Shown in pieces: positions 956 through 47,679 of a DNA stretch of 64,000 nt. Position 1 is the first letter of the stretch, and the number at the start of each line of letters is the position of its first letter. Below the pieces are notes generated by a model, which made no database searches, was not told where the DNA came from, and worked only from the letters and a program-made list of their open reading frames with translations. Both the position numbers and the translations under genes were made by a program. Origin of the DNA: Tautonia plasticadhaerens (lineage in GTDB: Bacteria; Planctomycetota; Planctomycetia; Isosphaerales; Isosphaeraceae); the NCBI RefSeq assembly GCF_007752535.1, contig NZ_CP036426.1:992001-1056000 (forward strand). The letters run 5' to 3'.

Positions 956-1073
956 CGGAGCGAACCCATTTCGGGCCTCGGGCGATCGACTCGATTCGGT
1001 CGAAACGGTCCATGGAGAAAGGGTTTGCGGAGGACGAACTCTCGGCCAGGTCGGGACCCGGTTCGGCGCACCG
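956..1073 (+). repeat. Dispersed intergenic repeat, copy A
   Basis: Starts with CGGAGCGAACCCATTTCGGGC-type sequence (956-976), and 109 nt after its first base comes GGCGCACCG (1065-1073). The same two boxes with exactly the same spacing occur in copy B, and the boxes recur with 75-nt spacing in two copies near 47 kb. The interior between the boxes is not conserved between A and B. A third degenerate box (GCGGAGGACGAAC) lies at about 1027-1039. Confidence 0.5.
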
Positions 1074-1214: not shown

Positions 1215-1332
1215 CGGAGCGAACCCATTTCGGGCGCCGGGGTGGCCCGGAGTTTTTGGCACAAAGTCCTGCGATTTTTGAGGTTGCGACGATTGTTCGT
1301 GGTGGGCGGCCCCGGGGCCGTTTGGCGCACCG
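1215..1332 (+). repeat. Dispersed intergenic repeat, copy B
   Basis: The first 21 bases (1215-1235) are identical to copy A. The terminal GGCGCACCG box is at 1324-1332, again 109 nt from the first base. The interior contains TTTGAGGTTGCG (about 1277-1288), which matches the TTGAGGTTGCG of copy D at 47 kb, so B links the two loci. Confidence 0.5.
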
Positions 1333-35889: not shown

Positions 35890-36034
35890 GGCGGACCCGG
35901 CCTCGACCGTCGCGCCGTGGGGCCGTCGTCGCCTCGGCCCGGATGCGGGTCGCCCCCACGCCTCTCTCGTCGAGCGGCCCCCGTCCGTCACGCCGGGGAC
36001 GGGCCCCGGGCCGCGGCCCTCGATCGATCGGGGT

Positions 36035-39000
36035 TCACTCCGCCGACCCCGTGCCGGCCATCCCCGGGGTCGGCCCGGGGGGCGTCGGGCCGTTGGTCAG
36101 GGACCTCGAGATCGCGACCAGCAGGCGCAGCTCGGGGCGGTCGGAGGACCACGACGAGGCGTGGTCGAGGTCCGCCCTCGCGGCCGAGACGAGGCCGAGG
36201 CGGCGATGGAGCCGGGCCCGGTGCAGCGAAATCCTCGGATCTTGCGGATCCCGGTCCAGGGCCTCGGTGAGCGACCGGACCGCCAGGTCCGCCCGGCCGA
36301 GTGCGGCCAGGGCGACGGCCCGCGCCCGGTGCAGCGCGGCGTCGTCGGCGCCGATCGCCTGGGAGCGGTTCAGCTCGGCCAGGGCGTCGGCCGGGCGTCC
36401 CGCCTCGGCGAGCACCAGGCCCCGGAGCGTCCTCGCGTCCGCGTCGTCGGGCCGGAGCGCGAGGGCGGCGTCCAGGTCGATCAGGGCGCCGTCGAGGTCG
36501 CCGGATCGGTGGCGGATCCGGGCCCGGACGAGGCGGGGCAGCGAGGCGTCGGGGGCGACGAGCACCGCGTCGGTCGCCCCGTCCTCGGCCGGGGCCGACT
36601 CGCCCAGCGCCGAGAGCAGGACCGCCCGGGTGAGCATCCTCGGCACGGGGGAGGGCTCGGGCTCGGGGGGGGGCTCGGCCATCGCCCCGACGGCGTGCCG
36701 GAGGTCGGCGACGAGACCGGGGCCGGGTGCGGGGAGCAGGTCGATCGCCGAGGGGTCGTCCAGCCGGAGGGAGCCCCCGGGGCGGGTCGCCAGCGTCGCC
36801 CGGAGCCGCAGCCGCTCGCCGGCCGGCGACGGCGAACGGCCCATCGCCTCGTCCGCGTCGGCCAGGGCGAGCTCGGCCCGGCCCGCCTCCAGTCGGCACC
36901 GCGCCCTCAGGTCGAAGGCCTCGGCGGCCGAGGAGGCCGGCAGCGACCGGGGGCGGCCCTCGGGCCCGAGGCGTCCGTCCCGGTCGGCGGCGATGAGCAG
37001 GTCGGCATCCGCCTCCGCGGCCCGGACGTCCCCCAGGGCGAGCGCCAGCAGGGCCCGGCCCAATCGGGCCTCGCGGTGGCCGGGGTCGTCGAGCAGCAGG
37101 TCGTTGTAGGCCAGCAGGGCGAGATCCGGCCGGCCGGCCTCGGCGTCGAGCCGGGCCAGGTCGAGCCGGGCGGCCCGCGAGAACCGGGAGCCGCCGGCCG
37201 CCGCCATCGCCGACTCGCCGCCGAGCCCGGCGGCGGCCGAGGCGAACGCCGAGCCCGGCGAGGCCGCCGAGATGACCGCCAGGCGGGCCGCGACCCCGGC
37301 CACCGACCGGCCGGGGGCCGACGGGCCGAGCACCGCCTCGAAGGCGTCCCTCGCCCCGGCCCGGTCGCCCCGCTCCAGCAGGACGAGCCCCAGGTTCAGG
37401 TCGATCCGGTCCCGGAGCCGGTCGCGATCCCGTTCCAGGACCCGGGCGGCGGCGGCCCGGAGGTCCCCCAGCGCCTCGGCCGAATCCCCCGTGGCCCGGT
37501 TCGCCAGCGCCCGGTTGAACAGCGCCCAGGGCGAGCCCGGCTTCAGGGCCACCGCCGCGTCGGCGTGCCGCAGGGCGTCGGAATGCCGGCCCGACTCCAG
37601 GGCGAAGGTCGCCAGGTAGAACCGGGGCCAGTACGAGTCGGGCCTCCCCCGGGCCGCGGCCTCGAGCGAGGCGAGCGCCCGGGCCGCGTCGGCCGGATCC
37701 CCCGTCTCCTGGAACCGGGAGGCGTGGGCAATCCCCCACAGGAATGCCGCCTCGGCCAGGTACCTCGGCCGGTCGGCCTCCGGCACGACCGCCCCCTCGG
37801 CCGGCCCGATCGCGGGGCTGGTGACGCCCAACTCCTCGCAGAGCGCGTCCCAGGGGCCCCGCCTCGGGTCGTCCCCCGGCATCGCCCGGACGGCCCGATC
37901 CCGGAGGTCGGCGACCCCGGACGCGATCCCCCCCCTCGGCCCCGGCCCCGGCCCGGTCAGCCGGAGGTGGACCGCCCTCAGGAAGAGCAGTTCGGGGACC
38001 TCGTCGAGCAGCCGGCGGCGGTGGTCCCCCTCCAGCCGGTCGAAGTCGGGGTTGGCGGCCCAGTCGACCGTCTTGAACACGCCGAAGTCGCCGAGCGCCT
38101 CCCGCAGCGCGTCCCCCGGCGGGCGTTCGGGCTCGACGAAACCGAAGAGGCGGTAGCGGAGCCATTCCGCCTCGGCGAAGAACTCCCCGACGAGCAGCTC
38201 CAGGGCGTAGGTGTGCGTCGCCCAGAGGCGCTTCTCCTCGGCCTCCCAGTACAGCGGGGCCAGCGACGGGTGGCGGGCGGCGGCGGTCTTGGCGAACAGA
38301 TAACCCTGGATCGCCTGCTCCAGCTTGCCGGCCTCCACGTTCACGTCGGCCTGGTCGATGTTCCGGCGGACCTCCCCCTCGGCCTCGACCCGCCTGACCC
38401 GGGCGTCGTGCAGGGTCGCCACCAGGATCGACCCGGCCACCACCGCGGGCGCCGCCACGGCGAACCTCCAGCGGTTCCGGCGCACCCACCGCAGCGACCG
38501 GCTGGCGATCGGCTCCTTCGCCACCCGGAGCGGGCCGTCGTCGGCCACGGCGAGCAGGTCGGCGGCCAGCTCGGCGGCCGACTGGTAGCGCCGAGCCGGG
38601 TCCGGCTCCAGGCTCTTGCGGATGACCGCCTCCAGCGCCGGGGAGACGGCCCGGCCCCCCCGTCGCAGCGGCGGGGGGCCGTCCCGGCGCTGCTGGGCGG
38701 TCTGCAGGAGGGCCTCGGCCACCGACCTCGCCTTGCGGACGACCGGGAAGGGGCGGTCCCCGGCGATCGCCTCGAACAGGACGACCCCCATCGCGAACAG
38801 GTCCGCCCGGGCGTCGACGCCCGAGTCGATCCCGTCGGCCAGCGCCTCGATGTGCTCCGGGGCCATGTAGGCGAGCGTCCCGCCGAGGGTCTCCGCCTCC
38901 TCGCCCGAGCCCTCGATCCTCGGGCCCATCGCCAGGTTGAAGTCCAGCAGCATCGGCAGGCCGTCGCCGGTGACGAGCACGTTGGAGGGCTTCACGTCCC

Positions 39001-40021
39001 GGTGCAACACCCCGCGGTCGTGCGCGTGCTGCAACGCCTCGGCCAGCCGGGCGCCCCACCAGGCGATCGCCCCCGAGAATGACCGGCCCGCCATCGCCCT
39101 CCGCGCCGAGGTCGACGGCCGGGGCAGCCCCACCTCGGGGGGCTCCAGCCGGTCGAGCACGTCCAGCAGCTCCCCCCCCGATCGCGCGGAGGCCGTCGCC
39201 GGGTCGGCCAGCACGGCGGCCAGGGTCAGGCGGCCGAAGTAGGGCATGCAGAGCAGGTGCAGGCCCGAGACCGGGTCGACCCGGTAGCTGTGGACCGGGA
39301 CGATGTGCGTGTGCTGCAGGCGAGCGAGGGTCTGCGGCTCCCTCGACCCCGCCGTCGCCACCTTCAACGCCACCGGCCGGTCGGCCAGCAGCCGCTCCTG
39401 GGCGAGGTAGACCCGGGCGAAGGAGCCCCGGCCCAGCTCCTCGATCAGCCGGAAGCCGCCGATCGTCTCCCCCGCCTCCGGGAACGAGGACAGATCGGGG
39501 TCCGGGTCGTCGCCGGCCCTCCTCGTCCGGGGCTGGCCGCCGGTGGTCATCGTGGCGCCGATCGAGCCGAGCGTCGGCGCGTTCGGGCCGCCGACCAGCG
39601 CGTGGATGTCGAACACCCGGCGGAGCCTCGGCGCCAGCTCGGGGAAGCGACGCTCGTACTCCAGCGGGTCGGCGGCGGCCCCGGCCTCCTCCTTCAGGCA
39701 GAACTCCTCGTAGAGCAGGCCGACGACCACCTCGGGGTCGAGCCCGGGGTAGCGCAGGCGGTATTGCTCCACCGACGGCTCCTGGCCGTCGTCCCATCGC
39801 AGGCCGAGGTCGGCCCGGAGCAGGGCGAGCCAGGCGCCGGGGCGCTCCTCCTCGGCGTCGGGCAGATACGAGGCGGGGTCGGGCCGGGCGCCGAGCTTCG
39901 AGCGCCTCCAGTCCTCCTCGAAGCGGCGGGCGAGCCGGGCGGCGGCGGGGGACGAGGCGTCGTCCCAGGTCCGGCCCGAGGTGCTGGCCAGGCTGGTCGG
40001 GGTGCTGGAGGGCTCGGTCAT
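36035..40021 (-). CDS. Ser/Thr protein kinase with C-terminal TPR region
   Basis: 1328 residues. N-terminal 185 residues include a helical domain (EQYRLRYPGLDPEVVVGLLYEEFCLKEE) found on many planctomycete kinases. Kinase domain about 188-490: GRGSFARVYLAQ (P-loop, about 197), VALKVA (Lys), HRDVKPSNVLV (about 341), LLDFNLAMGP (DFN in place of DFG, about 359), and GTLAYMAPEHIEAL. One transmembrane helix at about 508-528 (FAVAAPAVVAGSILVATL) is followed by a long region of TPR repeats to the C-terminus. Membrane sensor kinase; the input is probably read by the TPR part outside. The start lies 15 nt after the stop of the ECF sigma gene, so they form an operon. PknB-type kinases next to ECF factors are a known planctomycete signalling layout. 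Confidence 0.93.
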   Translation of the reverse strand: MTEPSSTPTSLASTSGRTWDDASSPAAARLARRFEEDWRRSKLGARPDPASYLPDAEEERPGAWLALLRADLGLRWDDGQEPSVEQYRLRYPGLDPEVVVGLLYEEFCLKEEAGAAADPLEYERRFPELAPRLRRVFDIHALVGGPNAPTLGSIGATMTTGGQPRTRRAGDDPDPDLSSFPEAGETIGGFRLIEELGRGSFARVYLAQERLLADRPVALKVATAGSREPQTLARLQHTHIVPVHSYRVDPVSGLHLLCMPYFGRLTLAAVLADPATASARSGGELLDVLDRLEPPEVGLPRPSTSARRAMAGRSFSGAIAWWGARLAEALQHAHDRGVLHRDVKPSNVLVTGDGLPMLLDFNLAMGPRIEGSGEEAETLGGTLAYMAPEHIEALADGIDSGVDARADLFAMGVVLFEAIAGDRPFPVVRKARSVAEALLQTAQQRRDGPPPLRRGGRAVSPALEAVIRKSLEPDPARRYQSAAELAADLLAVADDGPLRVAKEPIASRSLRWVRRNRWRFAVAAPAVVAGSILVATLHDARVRRVEAEGEVRRNIDQADVNVEAGKLEQAIQGYLFAKTAAARHPSLAPLYWEAEEKRLWATHTYALELLVGEFFAEAEWLRYRLFGFVEPERPPGDALREALGDFGVFKTVDWAANPDFDRLEGDHRRRLLDEVPELLFLRAVHLRLTGPGPGPRGGIASGVADLRDRAVRAMPGDDPRRGPWDALCEELGVTSPAIGPAEGAVVPEADRPRYLAEAAFLWGIAHASRFQETGDPADAARALASLEAAARGRPDSYWPRFYLATFALESGRHSDALRHADAAVALKPGSPWALFNRALANRATGDSAEALGDLRAAAARVLERDRDRLRDRIDLNLGLVLLERGDRAGARDAFEAVLGPSAPGRSVAGVAARLAVISAASPGSAFASAAAGLGGESAMAAAGGSRFSRAARLDLARLDAEAGRPDLALLAYNDLLLDDPGHREARLGRALLALALGDVRAAEADADLLIAADRDGRLGPEGRPRSLPASSAAEAFDLRARCRLEAGRAELALADADEAMGRSPSPAGERLRLRATLATRPGGSLRLDDPSAIDLLPAPGPGLVADLRHAVGAMAEPPPEPEPSPVPRMLTRAVLLSALGESAPAEDGATDAVLVAPDASLPRLVRARIRHRSGDLDGALIDLDAALALRPDDADARTLRGLVLAEAGRPADALAELNRSQAIGADDAALHRARAVALAALGRADLAVRSLTEALDRDPQDPRISLHRARLHRRLGLVSAARADLDHASSWSSDRPELRLLVAISRSLTNGPTPPGPTPGMAGTGSAE

Positions 40022-40036
40022 GCGTCGATCCGGCCG

Positions 40037-40714
40037 TCACGTTCCGGGGAGGGTCCCGTCCGCCGATCCCCCGTCGGGGTCCGCCTCGTCCGAGGAGCCG
40101 AACCCCGGGCCGAGGGGCTCGAGTCGACGGCGGAGGTCCTCGATGACCCGCTGCACGGTCCGCTCGCTGATCCCGAGCTTCTCGCCGACATCCCGGCTGG
40201 ACAGGCCCTGGGCCTTCAGCTCGACGATCGCCCGGCGGTCGTCGGGCATCAGCTCCGTCAACCGGGCCAGGACCTCATGCGCCTGGGCCACCTCGCTCGG
40301 GGTGTCCTCGTTGCCGGCGACGTCCCGGGGCCGCTGGCCGTCGACCCAGAGCGGCTCCTCCCGGTGCATGTCCTGCTTCTGGCTCCCGGCCCGGCGATAC
40401 TCGTCGATCACCTTGTTCTTCGCGGCCCGGGCCAGGAAGGCGACAAGGTGCCGGGAATCCTCGAAATCCGAGGGGCCGTCCCCCCCCCTCATCCGCCGGA
40501 AGAAGCTGCCCCAGACGCTCTGGAGGAAGTCCAGCGAGTCGAACCGCGACCGCAGGAGCCTCGGCAACTGCCGCCGGACCACCAGCCGGACCTCGGCCTC
40601 GTACCGGCCCAGCAGCTCCCGGGCGGCCACCTCGTCGCCGGCCCGGATGCGGCCCAGGAACTGGCGCAATTCCTCGCCGTCGTCGGGCCTTGCGCCCGGA
40701 CCGTCAGTCGCCAT
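40037..40714 (-). CDS. ECF-type RNA polymerase sigma factor
   Basis: 225 residues. Region 2: ELLGRYEAEVRLVVRRQL..SRFDSLDFLQSVWGSFFRRM and LVAFLARAAKNKVIDEYRR; region 4 helix-turn-helix: MPDDRRAIVELKAQGLSSRDVGEKLGISERTVQRVIEDLRRRL. This is the DFLQ/KNKVIDEYRR type seen in planctomycete ECF groups linked to Ser/Thr kinases rather than to anti-sigma factors. No anti-sigma gene is next to it. ATG at 40714 with GGAGGG 6 nt upstream; an open upstream extension is low-complexity. Co-transcribed with the kinase-TPR gene downstream, so phosphorylation probably controls it. Confidence 0.92.
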   Translation of the reverse strand: MATDGPGARPDDGEELRQFLGRIRAGDEVAARELLGRYEAEVRLVVRRQLPRLLRSRFDSLDFLQSVWGSFFRRMRGGDGPSDFEDSRHLVAFLARAAKNKVIDEYRRAGSQKQDMHREEPLWVDGQRPRDVAGNEDTPSEVAQAHEVLARLTELMPDDRRAIVELKAQGLSSRDVGEKLGISERTVQRVIEDLRRRLEPLGPGFGSSDEADPDGGSADGTLPGT

Positions 40715-40831
40715 GGTCGCTGCCCTCCGCCTCCGGCCCGCCCGAGCGGTCCCCTTGCGCCAAAGCCTAACCAGCCTCCCCCCCCTTGGCAAGCAATCCC
40801 GACCCCTCCCCCCGATTCCCGGGGAATTCAT

Positions 40832-40860
40832 TTGCCCCCTCGGCCATGCGCCGGTATTAC
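40832..40860 (+). promoter_or_regulatory. Sigma70-like promoter of the DUF4198-DUF1559 operon
   Basis: TTGCCC (40832-40837), 17-nt spacer, TATTAC (40855-40860), followed by an AT-rich CTTTTTGTG. Leader about 50 nt. Confidence 0.5.
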
Positions 40861-40915
40861 CTTTTTGTGCTACTTCCTACGCCGCCCGGCCATTCTCACC
40901 AGGAGCATCGACATC

Positions 40916-41782
40916 ATGACTCGGGGACGAGCGATCAGGGGCATCGGGGCGATCGTCGCGGCGGCGACGCTGTCGGGGGCGGTCGGCCGGGCGACGGCGC
41001 ACGAGATCAAGGTCCTGGCCGGCCGGCTCGTCACCGAGCCGGGCACCCGGGACACCGTCTACCTCTCCTGGGGGCACATCCTGCCCGTCGACATGCCGGT
41101 CGACGCCGAGGCGATCAAGGACTACCGCCTGCACACCCCCTCCGGCTCGGTCAGCTACCTGGCGACCGAGGGCTACTCCCTGCACGCCAACGAGGTCACC
41201 GTCGAGGAGGAGGGGCTCTACACCGCCGAGGTGACCCGGCACCCCTCCCTCTACACGGTCGTCGTCGACGAGCACGGCCAGCACCGCCACCTGGGCGCCT
41301 CGAAGGCCGAGGCCCGGGCCCAGGTCCAGGACGGGACGATCGACTACTCCGCTCGGAGCCACCAGTTCGCCAAGGCGATGCTCATCTCCGGCCACGACCT
41401 CGGCCACGGGCACTCTCACGAACAGGCTTCGCCTTCCGCGGGGGAGCCGGCCACGAAGGTCCTCGGCCACGACTTCGAGATCGTCCCGCTCGACGGCCCC
41501 GAGGCCTGGACCGCCGGCGCCGACCTCCGGGTGCAGGTCCTCTTCCAGGGCGAGCCCGCCGCCCGCCAGGACGTCTTCGCCCGGTTCATCGGCTTCAAGC
41601 CCGACCAGGCCTGGTGCTTCGCCATCCCGACCGACAACGAGGGGATCGCCTCGATCCGGGTCGACCGCCCCGGCACCTGGATCATCCGGGCCCAGAAAAT
41701 CCTCCCCGCCGCCGTCGAGGACCGCGAGCAGTTCGACGTCGAGTCCTTCACCGCGACTGTCGCCCTCGAAGTCCTGCCCTGA
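40916..41782 (+). CDS. DUF4198 domain secreted protein with His-rich loop
   Basis: 288 residues with a signal peptide (GIGAIVAAATLSGAVGRATAHE; His becomes one of the first mature residues). Beta-rich DUF4198 fold: HEIKVLAGRLVTEPGTRDTVYLSWGHILPVD, EGLYTAEVTRHPSLYTVVVDEHGQHRH, LRVQVLFQGEPAARQDVFARF, and RPGTWIIRAQK. A central HDLGHGHSHEQ cluster and other His residues suggest metal binding; DUF4198 proteins are often tied to nickel/cobalt uptake (NikM-like). ATG at 40916 with AGGAG 9 nt upstream. The DUF1559 gene starts 23 nt downstream, forming an operon. Metal role is inference. Confidence 0.78.
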   Translation: MTRGRAIRGIGAIVAAATLSGAVGRATAHEIKVLAGRLVTEPGTRDTVYLSWGHILPVDMPVDAEAIKDYRLHTPSGSVSYLATEGYSLHANEVTVEEEGLYTAEVTRHPSLYTVVVDEHGQHRHLGASKAEARAQVQDGTIDYSARSHQFAKAMLISGHDLGHGHSHEQASPSAGEPATKVLGHDFEIVPLDGPEAWTAGADLRVQVLFQGEPAARQDVFARFIGFKPDQAWCFAIPTDNEGIASIRVDRPGTWIIRAQKILPAAVEDREQFDVESFTATVALEVLP

Positions 41783-41805
41783 CCACCCCGCCGGGAGCCC
41801 CACCC

Positions 41806-42798
41806 ATGACCCACGCTCGACGCGGCTTCACCCTGATCGAGTTGCTGGTGGTGATCGCGATCATCGGTGTGCTGATCGCCCTGCTGCTGCCCGCCGTCCA
41901 GGCCGCCCGGGAGGCGGCCCGCCGGGCCCAGTGCACCAACAACCTGAAGCAGCTCGGCATCGCGCTGCACAACTACCACGACACGCTCGGCTGCTTCCCG
42001 ATCGGCTACACCATCTACGCGTCTCCCTGGCCGGGCGACCCCACCGTGCCCGGCGGCCACGCCAAGTGGGGGGCCCTGGCGCTGTTGACCCCCTTCCTAG
42101 AGCAATCGGCCGTCCACAATGCGCTGAACTTCAGCTTCCCGATCATCGGCGGCCCGGCCCAGGACTACGCCGTCTTCGCCGAGAACCTGACGGCCCTCTC
42201 GACCAAGGTCGGCCTCTTCCACTGCCCGAGCGACGGCATCGAACAACCCGCCCCGCCCGTCTTCGGGGCGAACTACGTGGCGACCGTCGGGACGGGCGTC
42301 GAGGTCCCGGCCAACGGCTATGAGCGCCTCGACGGCACCTTCTACGTCAACTCCTCGACCAGCATCGCCGACCTGAGGGATGGCACCAGCAACACCGTCG
42401 TCCTGTCCGAGAGCCTGCTCGGCCCCGGCGGCCCCTACAACATCCCCGCCTCGGAGATGAGCGACGACCCTCGCCGCTACATCCGCCACGTCGACACGCT
42501 GACCGAGGCCGACTGCCTCGCCGCCGTGAACCTCCACCCCGTCAAGCGGAGCAACTGGGCCGACGGCGACGGCAACGCCGGCACCTACGCCCACTTCTAC
42601 CCCCCCAACCGCCCCGAGCCCAGCTGCAACCGCCACTCCGTCGGCTGGTCCGACGCTAGCAGCAACCACCCCGGCGGCGTCAACGCCCTGCTCGGCGACG
42701 GCTCCGTCCGCTACCTCAAGGACACCGTCGCCCTGGAAACCTGGAGGGCCCTCTCCACCCGCAAGGGGGGCGAGGTCGTCTCCGCCGACAGACTCTGA
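41806..42798 (+). CDS. DUF1559 pseudopilin-like protein (copy 2)
   Basis: 330 residues. Prepilin leader [20 protein letters not shown] with Phe at +1 and Glu at +5, then [38 protein letters not shown] (typical DUF1559 order), FHCPSDG, DLRDGTSNTVVLSESLLG, and the C-terminal [18 protein letters not shown]-x9-DG motif. ATG at 41806 with GGGAG upstream. Sits directly behind the DUF4198 gene, suggesting that the pseudopilin is expressed together with an exported metal-binding-type protein. Shares the first ~45 residues almost exactly with copy 1 at 5.1 kb but little beyond, as usual for the family. Confidence 0.9.
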   Translation: MTHARRGFTLIELLVVIAIIGVLIALLLPAVQAAREAARRAQCTNNLKQLGIALHNYHDTLGCFPIGYTIYASPWPGDPTVPGGHAKWGALALLTPFLEQSAVHNALNFSFPIIGGPAQDYAVFAENLTALSTKVGLFHCPSDGIEQPAPPVFGANYVATVGTGVEVPANGYERLDGTFYVNSSTSIADLRDGTSNTVVLSESLLGPGGPYNIPASEMSDDPRRYIRHVDTLTEADCLAAVNLHPVKRSNWADGDGNAGTYAHFYPPNRPEPSCNRHSVGWSDASSNHPGGVNALLGDGSVRYLKDTVALETWRALSTRKGGEVVSADRL

Positions 42799-43176
42799 CA
42801 CCGGCTCGCCCGCTTGAGCGACTGTTCGAGCGACCGTTGGGATCGTTGGGGGGGCGGTCCCCCGCCGACAAGACGTGGCCCCACTCGCCCCCATATCGTT
42901 CGACACGCCCCTTGCCATCCCGCAATAAGGTGACAAATAGGTTCTCGCAAACGCCGCCCTTCGTCCTTCGAGAGGCAGGCTGGCCCTGGATCGGCTCAAC
43001 ACCTGGCGGTTGGAGTAGACGCTACCTGGCGGAGGCTAAGTCCGTGATTGGACCGGATGGCCTCGACGACTGATCCCCATCCCCAAATTCGCTCGTCGCC
43101 GGCGTGACTACCCGGTACGGTATCGGTTGGTGTTCCCCATCACCCATCACCAGGGCGTTGCCCGAGGGACCCGAAG
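42799..43176. other. Intergenic region, somewhat lower GC
   Basis: 378 bp with a visibly lower GC content than the surroundings. A short open frame (42837-43073) ends in SRRYLAEAKSVIGPDGLDD, which could be a decayed gene tail, but there is no ribosome-binding site or family match. Otherwise nothing recognised. Confidence 0.35.
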
Positions 43177-43683
43177 ATGCGTACCCTGCTCCTCCTTGCC
43201 GTCGTCCTCCTGGGGGGGCCCGAGTCGGGCTCCGTTCAGCACAGCGGCCCCTACCAGTCCATGACGCCCTTCGATGATGACCCGCGATCGGGCGGTATGA
43301 AGGTCCGGGTCGGCAATGGAGTCGAGGGCGACTATGGGCGTCGCGCCTTCATGCCCGACCGCGCCGGCAACATCGAGCTGGCCGTGCAGTATCAGGTCAA
43401 GCTGCCCGACCGCTACGGGCCAGGCGGGGAGGTCTACCGACTGATCGTCCAGGCCGTCCGGGTCCCTGTCGAGGAAGGCGACCAATGGGAGTTCGACTTC
43501 GAATTCCCGTTCGAGCCGTTCCGCGTCGGCGCGGGCGAGCACGTCAACGAAGTCGTGGCGGTCAAGGTGCCCTGCCCACCCGCGGAGGATGGGGGCGCGG
43601 TGCGCGTCATCGTCGAGGAGTTGCAGTCCGATGGCAAATGGGAGTCGCGATCGGTCGATACCGTCAACCTGATGCCCCTCTGA
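43177..43683 (+). CDS. Hypothetical secreted protein
   Basis: 168 residues with a signal peptide (MRTLLLLAVVLLGGPESG, cleavage near Ser18). The mature part is beta-prone, with ELAVQYQVKLPDRYGPGGEVYRLIVQAVRVPVEEGDQWEFDFEFPFEPFRVGAGEHVNEVVAVKVPCP and a C-terminal VRVIVEELQSDGKWESRSVDTV. No family recognised; it looks like a single extracytoplasmic beta domain. Base composition is a little lower in GC than neighbours, so it may be acquired. Convergent with the helicase gene. Confidence 0.6.
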   Translation: MRTLLLLAVVLLGGPESGSVQHSGPYQSMTPFDDDPRSGGMKVRVGNGVEGDYGRRAFMPDRAGNIELAVQYQVKLPDRYGPGGEVYRLIVQAVRVPVEEGDQWEFDFEFPFEPFRVGAGEHVNEVVAVKVPCPPAEDGGAVRVIVEELQSDGKWESRSVDTVNLMPL

Positions 43684-43906
43684 AGATTCACCGTCTCGAC
43701 CCACACGCCCCGGCCACAACCCCGTCCGGGGCTGTCGGGGCCGGTCAACGGCGGCGGTGCCATGTAGCGTATACTCCAAACGGCCTCCCGGCGGTGTGGC
43801 TGGGGTCTCGCGTAGCGAGCCCTCAGGCCCTGGGGCCTCCCGACCGGGGTCGACACGACGGCGACCGCCCCGCCCTCCAATCGTCAGGCTCCCGGGATCT
43901 CTGGCA

Positions 43907-46522
43907 TCAGGTGCCATCCCCCGAGAACAGCCGCTCGTGGAACCGCCGCAGCGCCTCCTCGGGCGATTCGAACCGCATCGGCTCCGGGCCCGCCGCGTCG
44001 ATCCAGGCGGCGGTGAAGGGGGAGGGGCCGTCGAGGACCCGGAAGCGGACGACCGGCCGGGAGCGGAGCCACTCCAGCGCCTTCGGGGCGTCGAGCAGGT
44101 CGTCGAGCACCTCCCGCCTCGTCTCCTTCAGCAGGGGATGGCCGGGGCAGGCGGCCTTGACCAGCGGGTAGAGCCTCCGGCTGACCCAGAGCAGGCCGCC
44201 GACCCGGGTGCGGCCCCCCTCGGGGCGTCGCAGGACCATCAACGCCGTCGCCGCGACGTGGCGGAACCGCCTCGCGGGCAGGTTGCCGCGGTCGACCCCG
44301 GCGAGCACGTCCTCCTCGAACCCGTCGGGGGAGAGCAGGGGGGGGATGTCCTCGGCGTCCAGTTGCGCCTCGATCGGGAGCCGGATCTGCCAGCCGAGGT
44401 CGGCGACGACCAGCCCCAGGTCCCGGCCGAATCGCCGGCCCAAACGGGCCGAGACCGCCCGCCCGGCCGCCTCGCAGGCCGACCGGCCGAGCGGGGCGTG
44501 GAAGGTGTAGCTGAGCCCGTCCTCAAGGGGCGACTCCTCGACCAGCACCGACCCCGGCCTGGGCACCTCGCTCAACCGCTCCTGGGCCGAGAACAGGGCT
44601 TCGAGCACGCCGATCGCCTGGGGCTCCAGCCCGTACTCGTCGACCAGCCAGGCCCGGAGCGCCGAGGGCCCCTCGTCGAGCAGCGTCGCGGCCCGGTAGC
44701 GGAAGGCGGCGAGATCCGAGGCGAGTTCCGAGGAGAGCCCCTGGCGGTCGCTCGTCCAGCGGGGGAGGTCGGGCTCCCCCCCCGAGAACCGGGCATGGAC
44801 CACCAGGTTGTCGAGCCGGTCGAACTCCAGGGCCCGGCCGTCGAGCACGAAGCGGTCCCCCCGCTGGAGGCGTTCGGCGTAGTTCCCCTCCAGGGTGCCG
44901 ATCGACTCGTCCTCCACGAGGACCCTGACGGATTCCTCCGACGTGATCGTCCCCACGTTGGACCGGAACCAGCGGATGATCCGGGTGTTCTTGACCCCGA
45001 ACAGCCCCCCCTTCTTCCAGAACCGGGGCGAGGTCCATTGCGGGGTCGCCCCCGGCTCCGGCTCCCAGGCGCCGGGGGGTGAGGGCAGTTCCCCCGCCAG
45101 GAAGTTGAGGCAGGCGTCGAAGTCGGGCCGGGTCAGGTGCTCCATCGGCCCCGCCTTACGGACGAGGTCGATCGCCTCGTCGCCCGAACACTCGCCGACG
45201 CAGGCCATGCCGATCAACTGCTGGCAGAGCACGTCTAGCGGCGCGGAGGTCATCCGCAAGGGTTCGACCCTCCCCTCCCGCGCCGCCTTCGCCGTCACGG
45301 CCGCTCCCGCCAGCTCGGCGGCGGTGGCGGCGAGCATCAGGCCCCTCGTCCGGGCCCCGACCCGGTGCCCGGCCCTCCCCACCCGCTGCAGGCACCTGGA
45401 GGCGCTGCCCGGCAGGCCGACCAGCACCGCCAGGTCGGCCGTGCCGATGTCGACCCCCAGTTCCAGGCTCGTGCTGGTGACGACCGCCCGCAGTTCCCCC
45501 GCCTTCAAGGCCGCCTCGACGGCCCGCCGCCGGTCGGCGTCGAGCGCCGAGTGGTGCGCCGCCACGGCGTCCTCGCCCAGGTCCCCCTTCAGGTCGTGCG
45601 TGATCCGCTCGGTGAAGGCCCGGGTGTTGGCGAAGACGACGGTGGTCCGGTTCCCCGCCGCCTCCTCGCGGAGCCTCCGGAGCAGTCGCCGATACGTCAG
45701 GCCCCGGTGCGGGCCCTCGTCGGGCTCCAGGAGCGACTCGACCTCGATGACCGGCCCCGCCTTGCCGTCCGGCCGGGGGGCCTCGATGACCCGGCACTCC
45801 CGGGTCGGACCGACCAGGAACCGGGCGACGGGCCCGGGCGGCTTGCAGGTCGCCGAGAGCCCCACCCGGCCCGGGTCGCGCTCGGCCTGCGCCGCCAGCC
45901 GCTCGAGCGAGACGGCCAGGTCCGCACCCCGCTTCGACGGCACGAGCGCATGGACCTCGTCGACGATCAGGTGCCCCACCGGCCGCCAGATCCTGCCCCA
46001 GGTCTTCTGGCTCAGGAGTAACGACAGGCTTTCGGGCGTCGTGATCAGCAGGTGCGGCGGGTTCTCCCGGAGCTTGCGGCGGAAGTGGCCCGAGGTGTCC
46101 CCCGTGCGGACCCCGATCGTCACCGGGCTGGTCGCCAGCCCCAGTTCGTGCCGGATGGCCTCGAGCGGCTCCAGCAGGTTCCGCTCGATGTCGTAGCCGA
46201 GGCTCCTCAGCGGCGAGACGTAGACGCACCGCAGGCCGGGTGCGAGCCCCCCGGACTCGTGCTCCCGGTAGAGCTGGTCGATGAGGGCGAGGAACGCCGC
46301 CAGCGTCTTCCCCGTGCCGGTCGGGGAGACGAGCAGGACGTTCTCCCCCGAGTCGATCGCCGGCCAGGCCAGCGCCTGGGCCGGGGTCGGACCGCCGGGG
46401 AAGGCCCGGGCGAACCAGGCCCGCACCGGGGCCGATCGGATCGCGGGCGCCGCCCCGACTCCCCCCGTCGCCGGGTTCGCTCGGGCCGATCGGGGGCGTC
46501 CGGAGGCGTCGTCTCGGGGCAT
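43907..46522 (-). CDS. Lhr-like DEAD/DEAH-box helicase
   Basis: 871 residues. RecA-like domain 1: PTPAQALAWPAI (Q-like motif), VSPTGTGKTLAAFLALI (Walker A, about 67), YVSPLRSLGYDI, TTPESLSLLLS, VDEVHALV (motif II, about 189), and GLSATC (motif III). Domain 2: VFANTRAFTERI, VAAHHSALDADRRRAVEAALKAGELRAVVTSTSLELGVDIG, and QRVGRAGHRVGARTRG (motif VI). A long C-terminal region with winged-helix and Lhr-specific domains follows. This is the Lhr core (superfamily 2, 3'-5'), best known in archaea and some bacteria, where it acts in DNA/RNA repair. The C-terminal extension of actinobacterial Lhr (~1500 aa) is absent. No nuclease or ligase partner is adjacent. Confidence 0.9.
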   Translation of the reverse strand: MPRDDASGRPRSARANPATGGVGAAPAIRSAPVRAWFARAFPGGPTPAQALAWPAIDSGENVLLVSPTGTGKTLAAFLALIDQLYREHESGGLAPGLRCVYVSPLRSLGYDIERNLLEPLEAIRHELGLATSPVTIGVRTGDTSGHFRRKLRENPPHLLITTPESLSLLLSQKTWGRIWRPVGHLIVDEVHALVPSKRGADLAVSLERLAAQAERDPGRVGLSATCKPPGPVARFLVGPTRECRVIEAPRPDGKAGPVIEVESLLEPDEGPHRGLTYRRLLRRLREEAAGNRTTVVFANTRAFTERITHDLKGDLGEDAVAAHHSALDADRRRAVEAALKAGELRAVVTSTSLELGVDIGTADLAVLVGLPGSASRCLQRVGRAGHRVGARTRGLMLAATAAELAGAAVTAKAAREGRVEPLRMTSAPLDVLCQQLIGMACVGECSGDEAIDLVRKAGPMEHLTRPDFDACLNFLAGELPSPPGAWEPEPGATPQWTSPRFWKKGGLFGVKNTRIIRWFRSNVGTITSEESVRVLVEDESIGTLEGNYAERLQRGDRFVLDGRALEFDRLDNLVVHARFSGGEPDLPRWTSDRQGLSSELASDLAAFRYRAATLLDEGPSALRAWLVDEYGLEPQAIGVLEALFSAQERLSEVPRPGSVLVEESPLEDGLSYTFHAPLGRSACEAAGRAVSARLGRRFGRDLGLVVADLGWQIRLPIEAQLDAEDIPPLLSPDGFEEDVLAGVDRGNLPARRFRHVAATALMVLRRPEGGRTRVGGLLWVSRRLYPLVKAACPGHPLLKETRREVLDDLLDAPKALEWLRSRPVVRFRVLDGPSPFTAAWIDAAGPEPMRFESPEEALRRFHERLFSGDGT

Positions 46523-46818
46523 CCGATTCCCAATCCGGGGCGCGGCCCCCTCCCCGTCGGCTCGCCTCGCACCGATCCCGGTCGGGTCGGGTCGGGTCGC
46601 GTCAGCATTCTATTCCCGCCCGCCGATCTCGTCGAGCCGGCGGACGACTCGTCGGGAAGTGGTGCGTGGGTGATTGTGTGGGTGTTCGGGCGGCTCGTGT
46701 GACTAAGGTTGCCGATTCTCTCGATGATATCGGAGGGGGGCCGTCCCCGATCCCGATGCCCCGGGGATCGTCGTCTCGGCCGGGACGGGGGGCGCAGGTC
46801 GGATCCGGAGGGCGTTCG

Positions 46819-46902
46819 CGGAGCGAACCCAATTGGGTTGGCGGAACTCATGAATTCGAAACGGGTTTCTGCGAATGAGGAGGGGCGTCGATTGGCGCAC
46901 CG
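46819..46902 (+). repeat. Dispersed intergenic repeat, copy C
   Basis: CGGAGCGAACCCAATTG at 46819-46835 (preceded by TTCG), ending with GGCGCACCG at 46894-46902, 75 nt after the first base. Within it TTCGCGGAGCGAACCC is mirrored by GGGTTTCTGCGAA (about 46863-46875), giving an imperfect hairpin. Confidence 0.55.
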
Positions 46903-47194
46903 GCCCGGGATTCGCCCGGCCACCGGCCCGGAGTCCGGCCGGGTTGCCCGGGGCCTGCGCCTCCCGAGCTGGCGTCGGGCCGCGGGGCGATCGGATCGGC
47001 CTTGGCGTCGGATTCCGGGGATTTCCCGGGACCGACGCGCAACGACCGGGCCCCTCGGGCGATCAGACAGTGGGCGTACCTCATGAGGCCCGGGCTCCGG
47101 GGCCGGGGGTCGGGCCGGTCGGCCCCTCGACTCCTCGGGAGCTCTCGGAGGGCTCGGCCGGGCCCGGCCGGACGGGGGGGCGGGGCCGGATTCG

Positions 47195-47278
47195 CGGAGC
47201 GAACCCAATTGAGGTTGCGCAACTCGTTTCATGCCAAATGATTCCAGACGATGGCTCCCCCCCTCATCAGGCGCACCG
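47195..47278 (+). repeat. Dispersed intergenic repeat, copy D
   Basis: Same boxes and the same 75-nt spacing as copy C: CGGAGCGAACCCAATTG at 47195-47211 and GGCGCACCG at 47270-47278, with TTCG in front. The bases after the first box (AGGTTGCGCAACTC) align with GGTTGGCGGAACTC of copy C. Confidence 0.55.
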
Positions 47279-47679
47279 ACCGGCGCACCGCCCCTTGCCC
47301 GGCCGTCGAGCCCCATCCGGCTTGGCGGGGGGGGACGAGGCCCCGCCGTCCTCGGGCGGATCGAATCGGGGGGCCGCTCGCGTCGTCCCTCAAGGTGGGA
47401 GGGCGTCCGATTCGGGACACGGTCGACCCGGGCCCGGGTCGACCGGGGAGGATCGGAGGCCAGGGCCGAACCCCTGGTCCGGGATCGGGATCGGGAAATG
47501 GGAGGGCCGTCCGTGTCGTCGGACTGACCGCGGTTGCGATTACATGGGGAGCAGTCGGTCTCGGGGCCGCCGGGGGTGATGGGATGTCGCCCCCGGTCGG
47601 CCGGACTCCTCGGGGATCGGACTGCCGCCACGCCGACGATCGGTCTGGAGAGGCCCAGGGATCGAGGGACTCGACCGTC

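Follow-up and report, generated by a model that had tools for sequence, protein, structure and literature searches.

Helix-phased arrays of an intergenic DNA element mark strand-asymmetry steps in Tautonia chromosomes

Dispersed intergenic repeats with an associated gene family are known from the REP/BIME sequences and RAYT, and directly repeated protein sites in helical phase are known from the iteron origins of plasmids such as RK2, R6K, F and P1, which are polar arrays with an AT-richer stretch. For iterons, an excerpt of one study states that the co-operativity of binding is lost when two of them are separated by a half turn (PMC4980987), and for lac-type looping operators, a passage of another states that the spacing of the sites matters by helical phase (PMC5081198). 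On the scale of whole chromosomes, the abstract of a study on cyanobacteria reports DnaA-independent replication from multiple origins, together with an irregular GC skew, for Synechocystis 6803, Nostoc 7120 and Cyanobacterium aponinum (PMC7198777).

The Tautonia arrays described here resemble iteron origins in their directly repeated sites, their AT-richer stretch, their polarity and the helical phase of the tandem sites (11.3 bp both within and between copies), with an initiator role that is putative in our case. Unlike iteron origins, they occur on the chromosome by the dozen, with four kinds of site per unit and a spacing that varies by whole turns, and they come without enrichment of DnaA boxes and without a recognisable Rep protein. 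Lac-type operator pairs share the spacing by helical phase, whereas the Tautonia arrays are distributed genome-wide and tied to strand-asymmetry steps. With the multi-origin cyanobacteria, the arrays have in common an irregular GC skew and, putatively, more than one start per chromosome; the cyanobacterial abstract names no element, whereas the steps in Tautonia are marked by a defined array, and dnaA is present. As in the case of REP/BIME and RAYT, the repeats are dispersed and intergenic, and a multicopy gene has a copy of the element at one end, but the Tautonia element has no conserved hairpin and no transposase match, and it occupies orthologous positions where these can be compared. Among the matches listed in our literature search, the element was not described in titles or abstracts.

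Composition, spacing and conservation of the arrays

The window is a stretch of 64,000 nucleotides (C1:992001-1056000) of a 9.40-Mb, six-contig Tautonia genome. The first-pass annotation had recognized copies C and D of the second array by two boxes with 75-nt spacing, and this is exactly what is found, as the distances from L start to R start run from 46819 to 46894 and from 47195 to 47270. The features of the two arrays are:

956..1073, plus strand: first array, copy A, left box L at 956-971 and right box R at 1065-1073, distance 109; orthologous array in two congeners
1215..1332, plus strand: first array, copy B, left box L at 1215-1230 and right box R at 1324-1332, distance 109
46819..46834, plus strand: left box L of copy C, CGGAGCGAACCCAATT; the fetched loci have 137 such L matches
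46838..46850, plus strand: inner site M of copy C, around GGCGGAACTC, from the class-75 consensus
46862..46877, plus strand: inner site M' of copy C, around GGGTTTCTGCGAA, from the consensus
46894..46902, plus strand: right box R of copy C, GGCGCACCG, L-R distance 75
47195..47210, plus strand: left box L of copy D, CGGAGCGAACCCAATT, from the sequence
47217..47225, plus strand: inner site M of copy D, GCGCAACTC, from the consensus
47270..47278, plus strand: right box R of copy D, GGCGCACCG, L-R distance 75
47282..47290, plus strand: additional right box of copy D, 12 bp past the first one, from the sequence

Within the window, TTCGCGGAGCGAACCCAATT occurs twice (at 46815 and 47191, with at most 3 mismatches), and it was not found in 100 shuffles. 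The annotation had staked its repeat family on further copies, and these exist in number: the 15-base box has 95 matches in the own genome at up to 1 mismatch and the 16-base box 158 at up to 2 mismatches, with no match of the reversed-pattern control of the former or of the control of the latter. In three congeners, the 16-base box gave 49, 17 and 19 matches against 2, 2 and 0 in the controls, and the composite element pattern also matches the public genome of Tautonia sociabilis GM2012. The proposed genome-wide intergenic repeat family with size classes is thus real and numbers more than 100 elements in the own genome; they form 64 clusters, each with one to four copies on the same strand. 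We fetched 62 own-genome regions of 13-19.5 kb each, 60 of which contain elements, with 137 L boxes altogether; the two fetched loci without an L box are L071 and L108.

The L box CGGAGCGAACCCATTT and the R box GGCGCACCG enclose a core that is richer in AT than the flanks (42% versus 22%, 132 elements). The order of sites is an optional CGGTGCGCC, placed 12-16 bp ahead of the L box, then L, M, M' and R, with the inner site M in the family form CGCAA[C/G]TC.TT and M' (TTGCG.CGAA) inverted relative to M. The R box is sometimes doubled, with the second one 10-12 bp further on and recurrent in the family, and some arrays carry extra ACGAA[CG]CCAAT-like sites 22, 31-34 or 44 bp ahead of the L box. 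Both box motifs are concentrated between genes, the L motif CGAA[CG]CCA[AT]T with 0.718/kb in intergenic versus 0.013/kb in genic DNA and the R motif GCGCACCG with 1.21/kb versus 0.054/kb; the inverse L motif is absent from the listed array regions of up to 3 kb. Called genes are overlapped by 10 of the 137 elements, the genes having been called by codon-position GC, with Pfam matches obtained for these calls. A coding repeat was rejected, as the arrays are intergenic and the L-R distances are not all multiples of three. Full-length homology of the kind seen in MITEs is not found either, since the cores do not align beyond the boxes.

In other genera of the Isosphaeraceae (L161 in G023, G010:C256 and L166 in G015), the box core CGAACCCATT and close variants of it form short iterons in tandem, about 25, 26 and 35 bp in length. 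Another side observation concerns an insertion sequence that appears to insert at a single precise position within the L box, between ..GAACCCAT and CTATGAGAGG.., in seven cases (L133, L145, L153, L157, L202 and L206 in G001, L166 in G015). A contig-end fragment (L213, L215) matches DEDD_Tnp_IS110 with an E-value of 0.0027, below the family cut-off, and judging from these sequences an IS110-like element may target the boxes.

The distances between the boxes are quantised. Instead of the two size classes (109 and 75) of the first-pass annotation, at least five were found, namely 63-65, 75, 85-87, 97 and 109 bp. The L-R distances follow a period of 11.25-11.3 bp with a vector length of 0.90 (62 locus-strand groups, one value each), compared with a maximum of 0.44 in 3000 sets of uniform distances, and the congeners show the same phasing (vector length 0.84, n=39). 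The copy-to-copy L-L spacing also has a period of 11.3 bp (vector length 0.55, n=65). M could be recognised in 74 of 132 elements, and in these the L-M distance is mainly 21-22, 32-34 or 44 and the M-R distance mainly 42-44, 53-54 or 65, each of them stepping separately. Adjacent copies tend to belong to the same spacing class (46 of 71 pairs versus 18.7 expected), and orthologous arrays either keep their distance or change it mostly by whole turns (75 to 85, 64 to 74, 87 to 53 or 63), with one exception, an orthologous copy at 101 beside 109. Relaxed B-DNA has 10.5 bp per turn, and the period of about 11.3 bp is longer than this; it has the size that has been reported for loops in living cells. 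As the spacing is quantised in whole turns, it suggests proteins on one face of the DNA, and we consider it very likely, judging by this periodicity, that the element is bound by protein in this way.

A structured noncoding RNA, as had been proposed, would leave other traces, and we regard it as extremely unlikely. RNAalifold of 31 class-75 copies gave -2.12 kcal/mol with 5 pairs, compensatory changes were found at none of these 5 pairs, and the stem proposed for copy C pairs in other copies only as the column composition predicts. Compared with shuffled sequences, the folds of copies C and B are slightly more stable (z -1.74 and -1.60), whereas those of A and D are not (+0.22 and +0.54). The fold of copy C contains the long-range pairing of the suggested hairpin, and that of copy D does not. 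There is no Rfam match in the window at the gathering score, and the spacing steps of 11.3 bp also speak against an RNA, which was rejected as a candidate on the grounds of folds, covariation and Rfam. The segment TTGAGGTTGCG is indeed common to copies B and D, as had been noted, but it does not have the same place within the element.

The element also exists in the three congeners, partly at orthologous places. Thirty-one of 37 congener loci have the composite element, and 14 of these have protein matches to fetched own loci, the other 17 having no match to compare. In 12 of the 14 comparable loci, both the position and the orientation of the array are kept, which speaks against the mobility that had been suggested for the element; the placement disagrees for L201/L129 and L204/L130. 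These 12 loci form seven ortholog groups (L096, L082, L118, L078, L090, L104 and L128), of which the L078 group contains the first array of the window and the L096 group spans four species; the congener regions that we fetched showed no ortholog of the second array, with copies C and D. Five of the seven groups have matched genes to either side of the array. In the L096 group, the boxes are kept while the remaining intergenic DNA has diverged. The arrays that can be compared are therefore vertically conserved, and it is certain that the arrays as a whole represent a large intergenic family of helix-phased DNA elements, conserved wherever comparable.

The gene neighbourhood bears on the possibility that the arrays are transcriptional or architectural, with DNA-binding proteins on phased sites regulating genes or organising the chromosome, and with the strand-asymmetry step described below stemming from something co-located. 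In the four-species group, a TATAAT motif lies some 50-65 bp past the R box, ahead of a gene that reads as def (peptide deformylase), in 39 of 64 clusters the array precedes the start of the R-side gene, several housekeeping enzymes are among the R-side neighbours, and helical phasing is expected of co-operative regulators. However, the R-side gene presents its 3' end to the array in the other 25 of the 64 clusters, and no gene family prevails, a Pfam family being shared by at most 2 of 63 neighbours on the R side and 4 of 62 on the L side (sigma-70 regions). The association with particular gene types that the earlier annotation had advised checking was thus not found among the neighbours. Furthermore, a regulator would leave unexplained a skew tail of 40-60 kb that runs across both gene orientations, and we regard this explanation as rather doubtful.

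Strand asymmetry around the arrays

The sign of the GC skew is opposite to the array orientation in most loci, with L070, L080, L094 and L113 as the exceptions among 13-kb means. The skew analysis covers a continuous 464-kb stretch of the chromosome, along with some 60 local regions and a number of sampled pieces. When the raw skew is read in the orientation of the element in 500-bp bins over 6 kb, the L side has values of -0.06 to -0.10 and the R side values between 0 and -0.03. Among 56 single-cluster loci, the raw L-side skew is negative in 51 and R exceeds L in 47; the multi-cluster loci L114, L124, L125 and L129 were left out of the per-locus tests. At third codon positions, the L-side skew is -0.284 in sense and +0.008 in antisense genes, compared with -0.171 and +0.103 on the R side. 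Since sense and antisense genes are shifted to a similar extent, the effect is an additive one on the strand, independent of the gene strand. After codon correction, the GC3 skew of 50 single-cluster loci outside the six own HGL loci described below is -0.142 on the L side, where it is negative in 45 of the 50, and -0.030 on the R side, which gives a step of 0.112 (bootstrap 95% 0.084-0.141) that is positive in 43 of the 50 loci; a locus was included only if more than 100 sites were scored on each side. The third-position TA skew agrees weakly, with -0.058 versus -0.011 within 6 kb, and this difference is absent within 3 kb.

Along the 464 kb of continuous chromosome, in which L130 on the second contig was left out, the skew has the form of a sawtooth. 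Each of the five largest upward 15-kb steps has an array at a distance of 0.4-6.9 kb, and for three of these steps the distance is no more than about 1.5 kb. Averaged over the five testable arrays, the step is 0.120, a value that 5 of 20000 random draws attained. Successive 10-kb values on the L side are -0.138, -0.109, -0.098, -0.040, -0.067 and -0.023 and then rise above zero, which corresponds to a tail of 40-60 kb. The near part of such a tail lies in the window:

36001..46800, no strand: near L-side skew tail of the second array; 4-kb bins of C1:1028001-1040000 with codon-corrected GC3 skew of -0.134, -0.190 and -0.156

The third of these bins contains the second array, and the two bins after it have values of -0.015 and -0.007. 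The congeners repeat the pattern, with a negative raw skew on the L side in 30 of 31 loci and L below R in 28 of 31, some of these loci having a very short side at a contig end. Pooled third positions of G001 gave -0.141 (antisense) and -0.392 (sense) for the L side and +0.114 and -0.245 for the R side; those of G003 are similar, and the data for G002 are incomplete. In conclusion, it is well supported that the arrays mark strand-asymmetry steps. The "nucleoid site" or replication feature considered in the first-pass annotation thus pointed in the right direction as far as the location at skew steps is concerned, with a function that is putative.

Array-free sampled pieces at 4.23-4.31 and 5.20 Mb have a skew mostly near zero, and array-free 20-kb pieces with a marked skew were sampled at 5.40 Mb (about -0.19), 5.60 Mb (+0.16) and 8.63 Mb (+0.31). 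The arrays therefore do not explain every skewed stretch observed. The contig C1 of the own genome (8.67 Mb) starts at dnaA and, as sampled, has only a weak GC skew on the replichore scale, with R-side means of -0.001 on the right arm and -0.041 on the left arm. As this weak component remains, dnaA/oriC may still be used.

Skew peaks may also stem from inversions or assembly errors, as an excerpt of a study on skew points out (PMC8941118), and the steps at the arrays could accordingly be old inversion ends, or an artefact of gene strand or codon use. The chromosome has no plain two-replichore skew, as would be seen in a much-inverted genome. However, gene order is kept on both sides of the array in the five ortholog groups mentioned above, the skew on the R side is near zero (sd 0.056-0.077), and the effect is equal in sense and antisense genes and repeated in the congeners. 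We therefore regard such an origin of the steps as very unlikely.

Directional sites of recombination or break repair, at which a break or a fork restart is followed by one-sided synthesis resembling break-induced replication, could leave a tail of strand-biased mutations as well. The tail is indeed one-sided and decaying, and the arrays are polar, as the copies of each cluster lie on one strand. However, deamination of C makes an exposed strand G-rich, so that simple 5' resection with C deamination predicts a G-rich element strand on the L side, where this strand is in fact C-rich. Resection at double-strand breaks was thus rejected for its wrong skew sign, and the wider explanation by break repair appears unlikely to us, even though skew cannot separate break-induced synthesis from the firing of an origin.

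The HGL gene family

Eight of the 64 clusters adjoin an HGL gene, in the form of a single class-109 element at or inside the 3' end of a paralogous gene. The five HGL proteins that were read out have 451-519 amino acids and start like MTTPSQKQ..ANRRNALRSTGPRTAEGK..SRRNGL.HGL, with the N-terminal signature RRNA..STGPRTAEGK..SRRNGL.HGL (L080:6539-7894, minus strand, and paralogs). There are 28 matches in the own genome. In a search of 40 genomes, this one among them, 19 gave matches, and G004, G006, G010, G021 and G023 contain 19-37 copies each. Two HGL proteins gave no Pfam or NCBIfam match up to an E-value of 10, a third one (L114) had a Pfam match at chance level only (E 0.79), and an HGL query found no PHROGs match up to an E-value of 1 and no PDB match. 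There was no match in viral contigs, where close relatives only were searched, and one plasmid record had a match. An adjacent winged-helix Rep gene, as would be expected for an iteron origin, is thus not seen, given that HGL lies beside so few of the clusters and lacks a significant Pfam match, and neither is a Y1 transposase of the RAYT type, as the NCBIfam search was equally without a significant match.

All 12 strong own HGL copies have an L-type motif near the stop codon, and in 11 of the 12 an R box follows exactly 108 bp further on; in this survey of 3' ends, seven own-genome loci were without the HGL signature, and L275 was a false match. The boxes are read in frame as ..RSEPI.. and ..RRTDP... 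The motif CGAASCCA lies in the 3' coding end, in the orientation of the gene, in 15 of 20 HGL genes of G023, where one inverse motif was also seen, and near the 3' end of many HGL homologs in other genera. The HGL family thus shares the DNA code of the arrays.

This sharing would also be expected if the element were a mobile or REP-like repeat cognate to HGL, comparable to REP and RAYT and without a chromosomal role. The motifs at the 3' ends, both in the own genome and in other genera, agree with such a relationship, as does the multicopy nature of HGL, with 13-37 copies in several relatives. However, the arrays are orthologous between species where they can be compared, the copies share boxes and phase and not body sequence, there is no conserved hairpin, and the tested HGL proteins have no significant match in Pfam or NCBIfam. 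We consider this explanation quite unlikely.

The HGL loci differ from the other arrays with respect to the skew. At six own HGL loci (L080, L089, L093, L098, L113 and L126), there was no upward step within 6 kb, rather one of -0.088, for which the paralogous gene itself may be the source of bias. The 20 HGL loci of G023 had no step either, with R above L in 10 of 20, although the reference point is uncertain for L315, L320, L322 and L324, where an off-centre reading frame was picked. The locus at C1:1073 kb, which belongs to the six own HGL loci and also to the five testable arrays of the continuous stretch, does show a step, of about 0.10, when 15 kb on each side are considered, and L is below R in at least three of the four congener HGL loci (L181, L191, L197 and L204). 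The absence of a step at the own and G023 loci implies that an element plus the gene is not enough, and the exception is not a clean one. HGL genes as the origin itself are not supported, given the six own loci within 6 kb and the 20 loci of G023.

Around the HGL genes of G023 (L315-L334), the skew in gene orientation is negative on both sides (17 and 18 of 20), with plus-strand and minus-strand genes interspersed. The G023 genome may also have alternating skew domains.

Dispersed replication starts as a reading of the arrays

If skew is taken as a long-term record of fork polarity, an upward step stands for net initiation. As such a step is what an initiation site would leave, the best reading of the arrays is that they are replication start sites dispersed over the chromosome, with forks that would run mainly toward the L side, and we hold this reading tentatively, as a plausible one. 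On the same premise, the one-sided tail would mean that forks leave mainly toward L and end over tens of kilobases. The step of the expected sign at 43 of the 50 loci is in this respect a proxy for a change of fork direction. On the L side, the G-rich strand is the one opposite to the element strand, as would be the case for the leading strand of an outgoing fork, and a G excess on leading strands is described in the excerpt cited above (PMC8941118). Skew is a long-term average, and the present activity of an origin lies beyond its reach. Near the arrays, DnaA boxes are not enriched (1 found versus 1.5 expected in 55 kb, for the E. coli-type box with at most 1 mismatch). Genes on the L side show no clear co-orientation with the proposed fork, with 125 in the opposite and 115 in the same orientation, and on the R side 148 genes have the same and 99 the opposite orientation.

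What we infer, from protein binding and looping through the initiation and direction of forks to the identity of the binder, can be put as follows. The array would be the DNA site of a protein complex that sits on L, M/M' and R, all on the same helical face, with the AT-richer core between these sites probably bent or looped by the complex. It would start replication locally and send the fork mainly toward the L side, so that the chromosome would be copied from dozens of dispersed starts and not almost only from dnaA/oriC. The HGL proteins are the first candidate for the binder, as the element recurs in the 3' coding end of their genes. A more far-reaching version is that Tautonia chromosomes are mainly duplicated from dozens of helix-phased, polar origins defined by sequence, each firing one way, which took the place of a single-origin plan, with HGL or a protein that shares its code as the initiator and with the spacing classes as geometries of one complex; this we think possible, and on balance doubtful.

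Even without a role in replication, the spacing series, advancing by 11.3 bp, provides a naturally occurring readout of DNA twist in the cell, and HGL is an uncharacterised multicopy protein family tied to array sites. A single origin per chromosome is the textbook rule for bacteria, and the multi-origin exceptions in cyanobacteria are reported, in the abstract cited above, without a defined start sequence (PMC7198777). If our reading of the arrays is true, a recognisable element would make multi-origin replication in bacteria testable by sequence, by mutation and by the mapping of forks.
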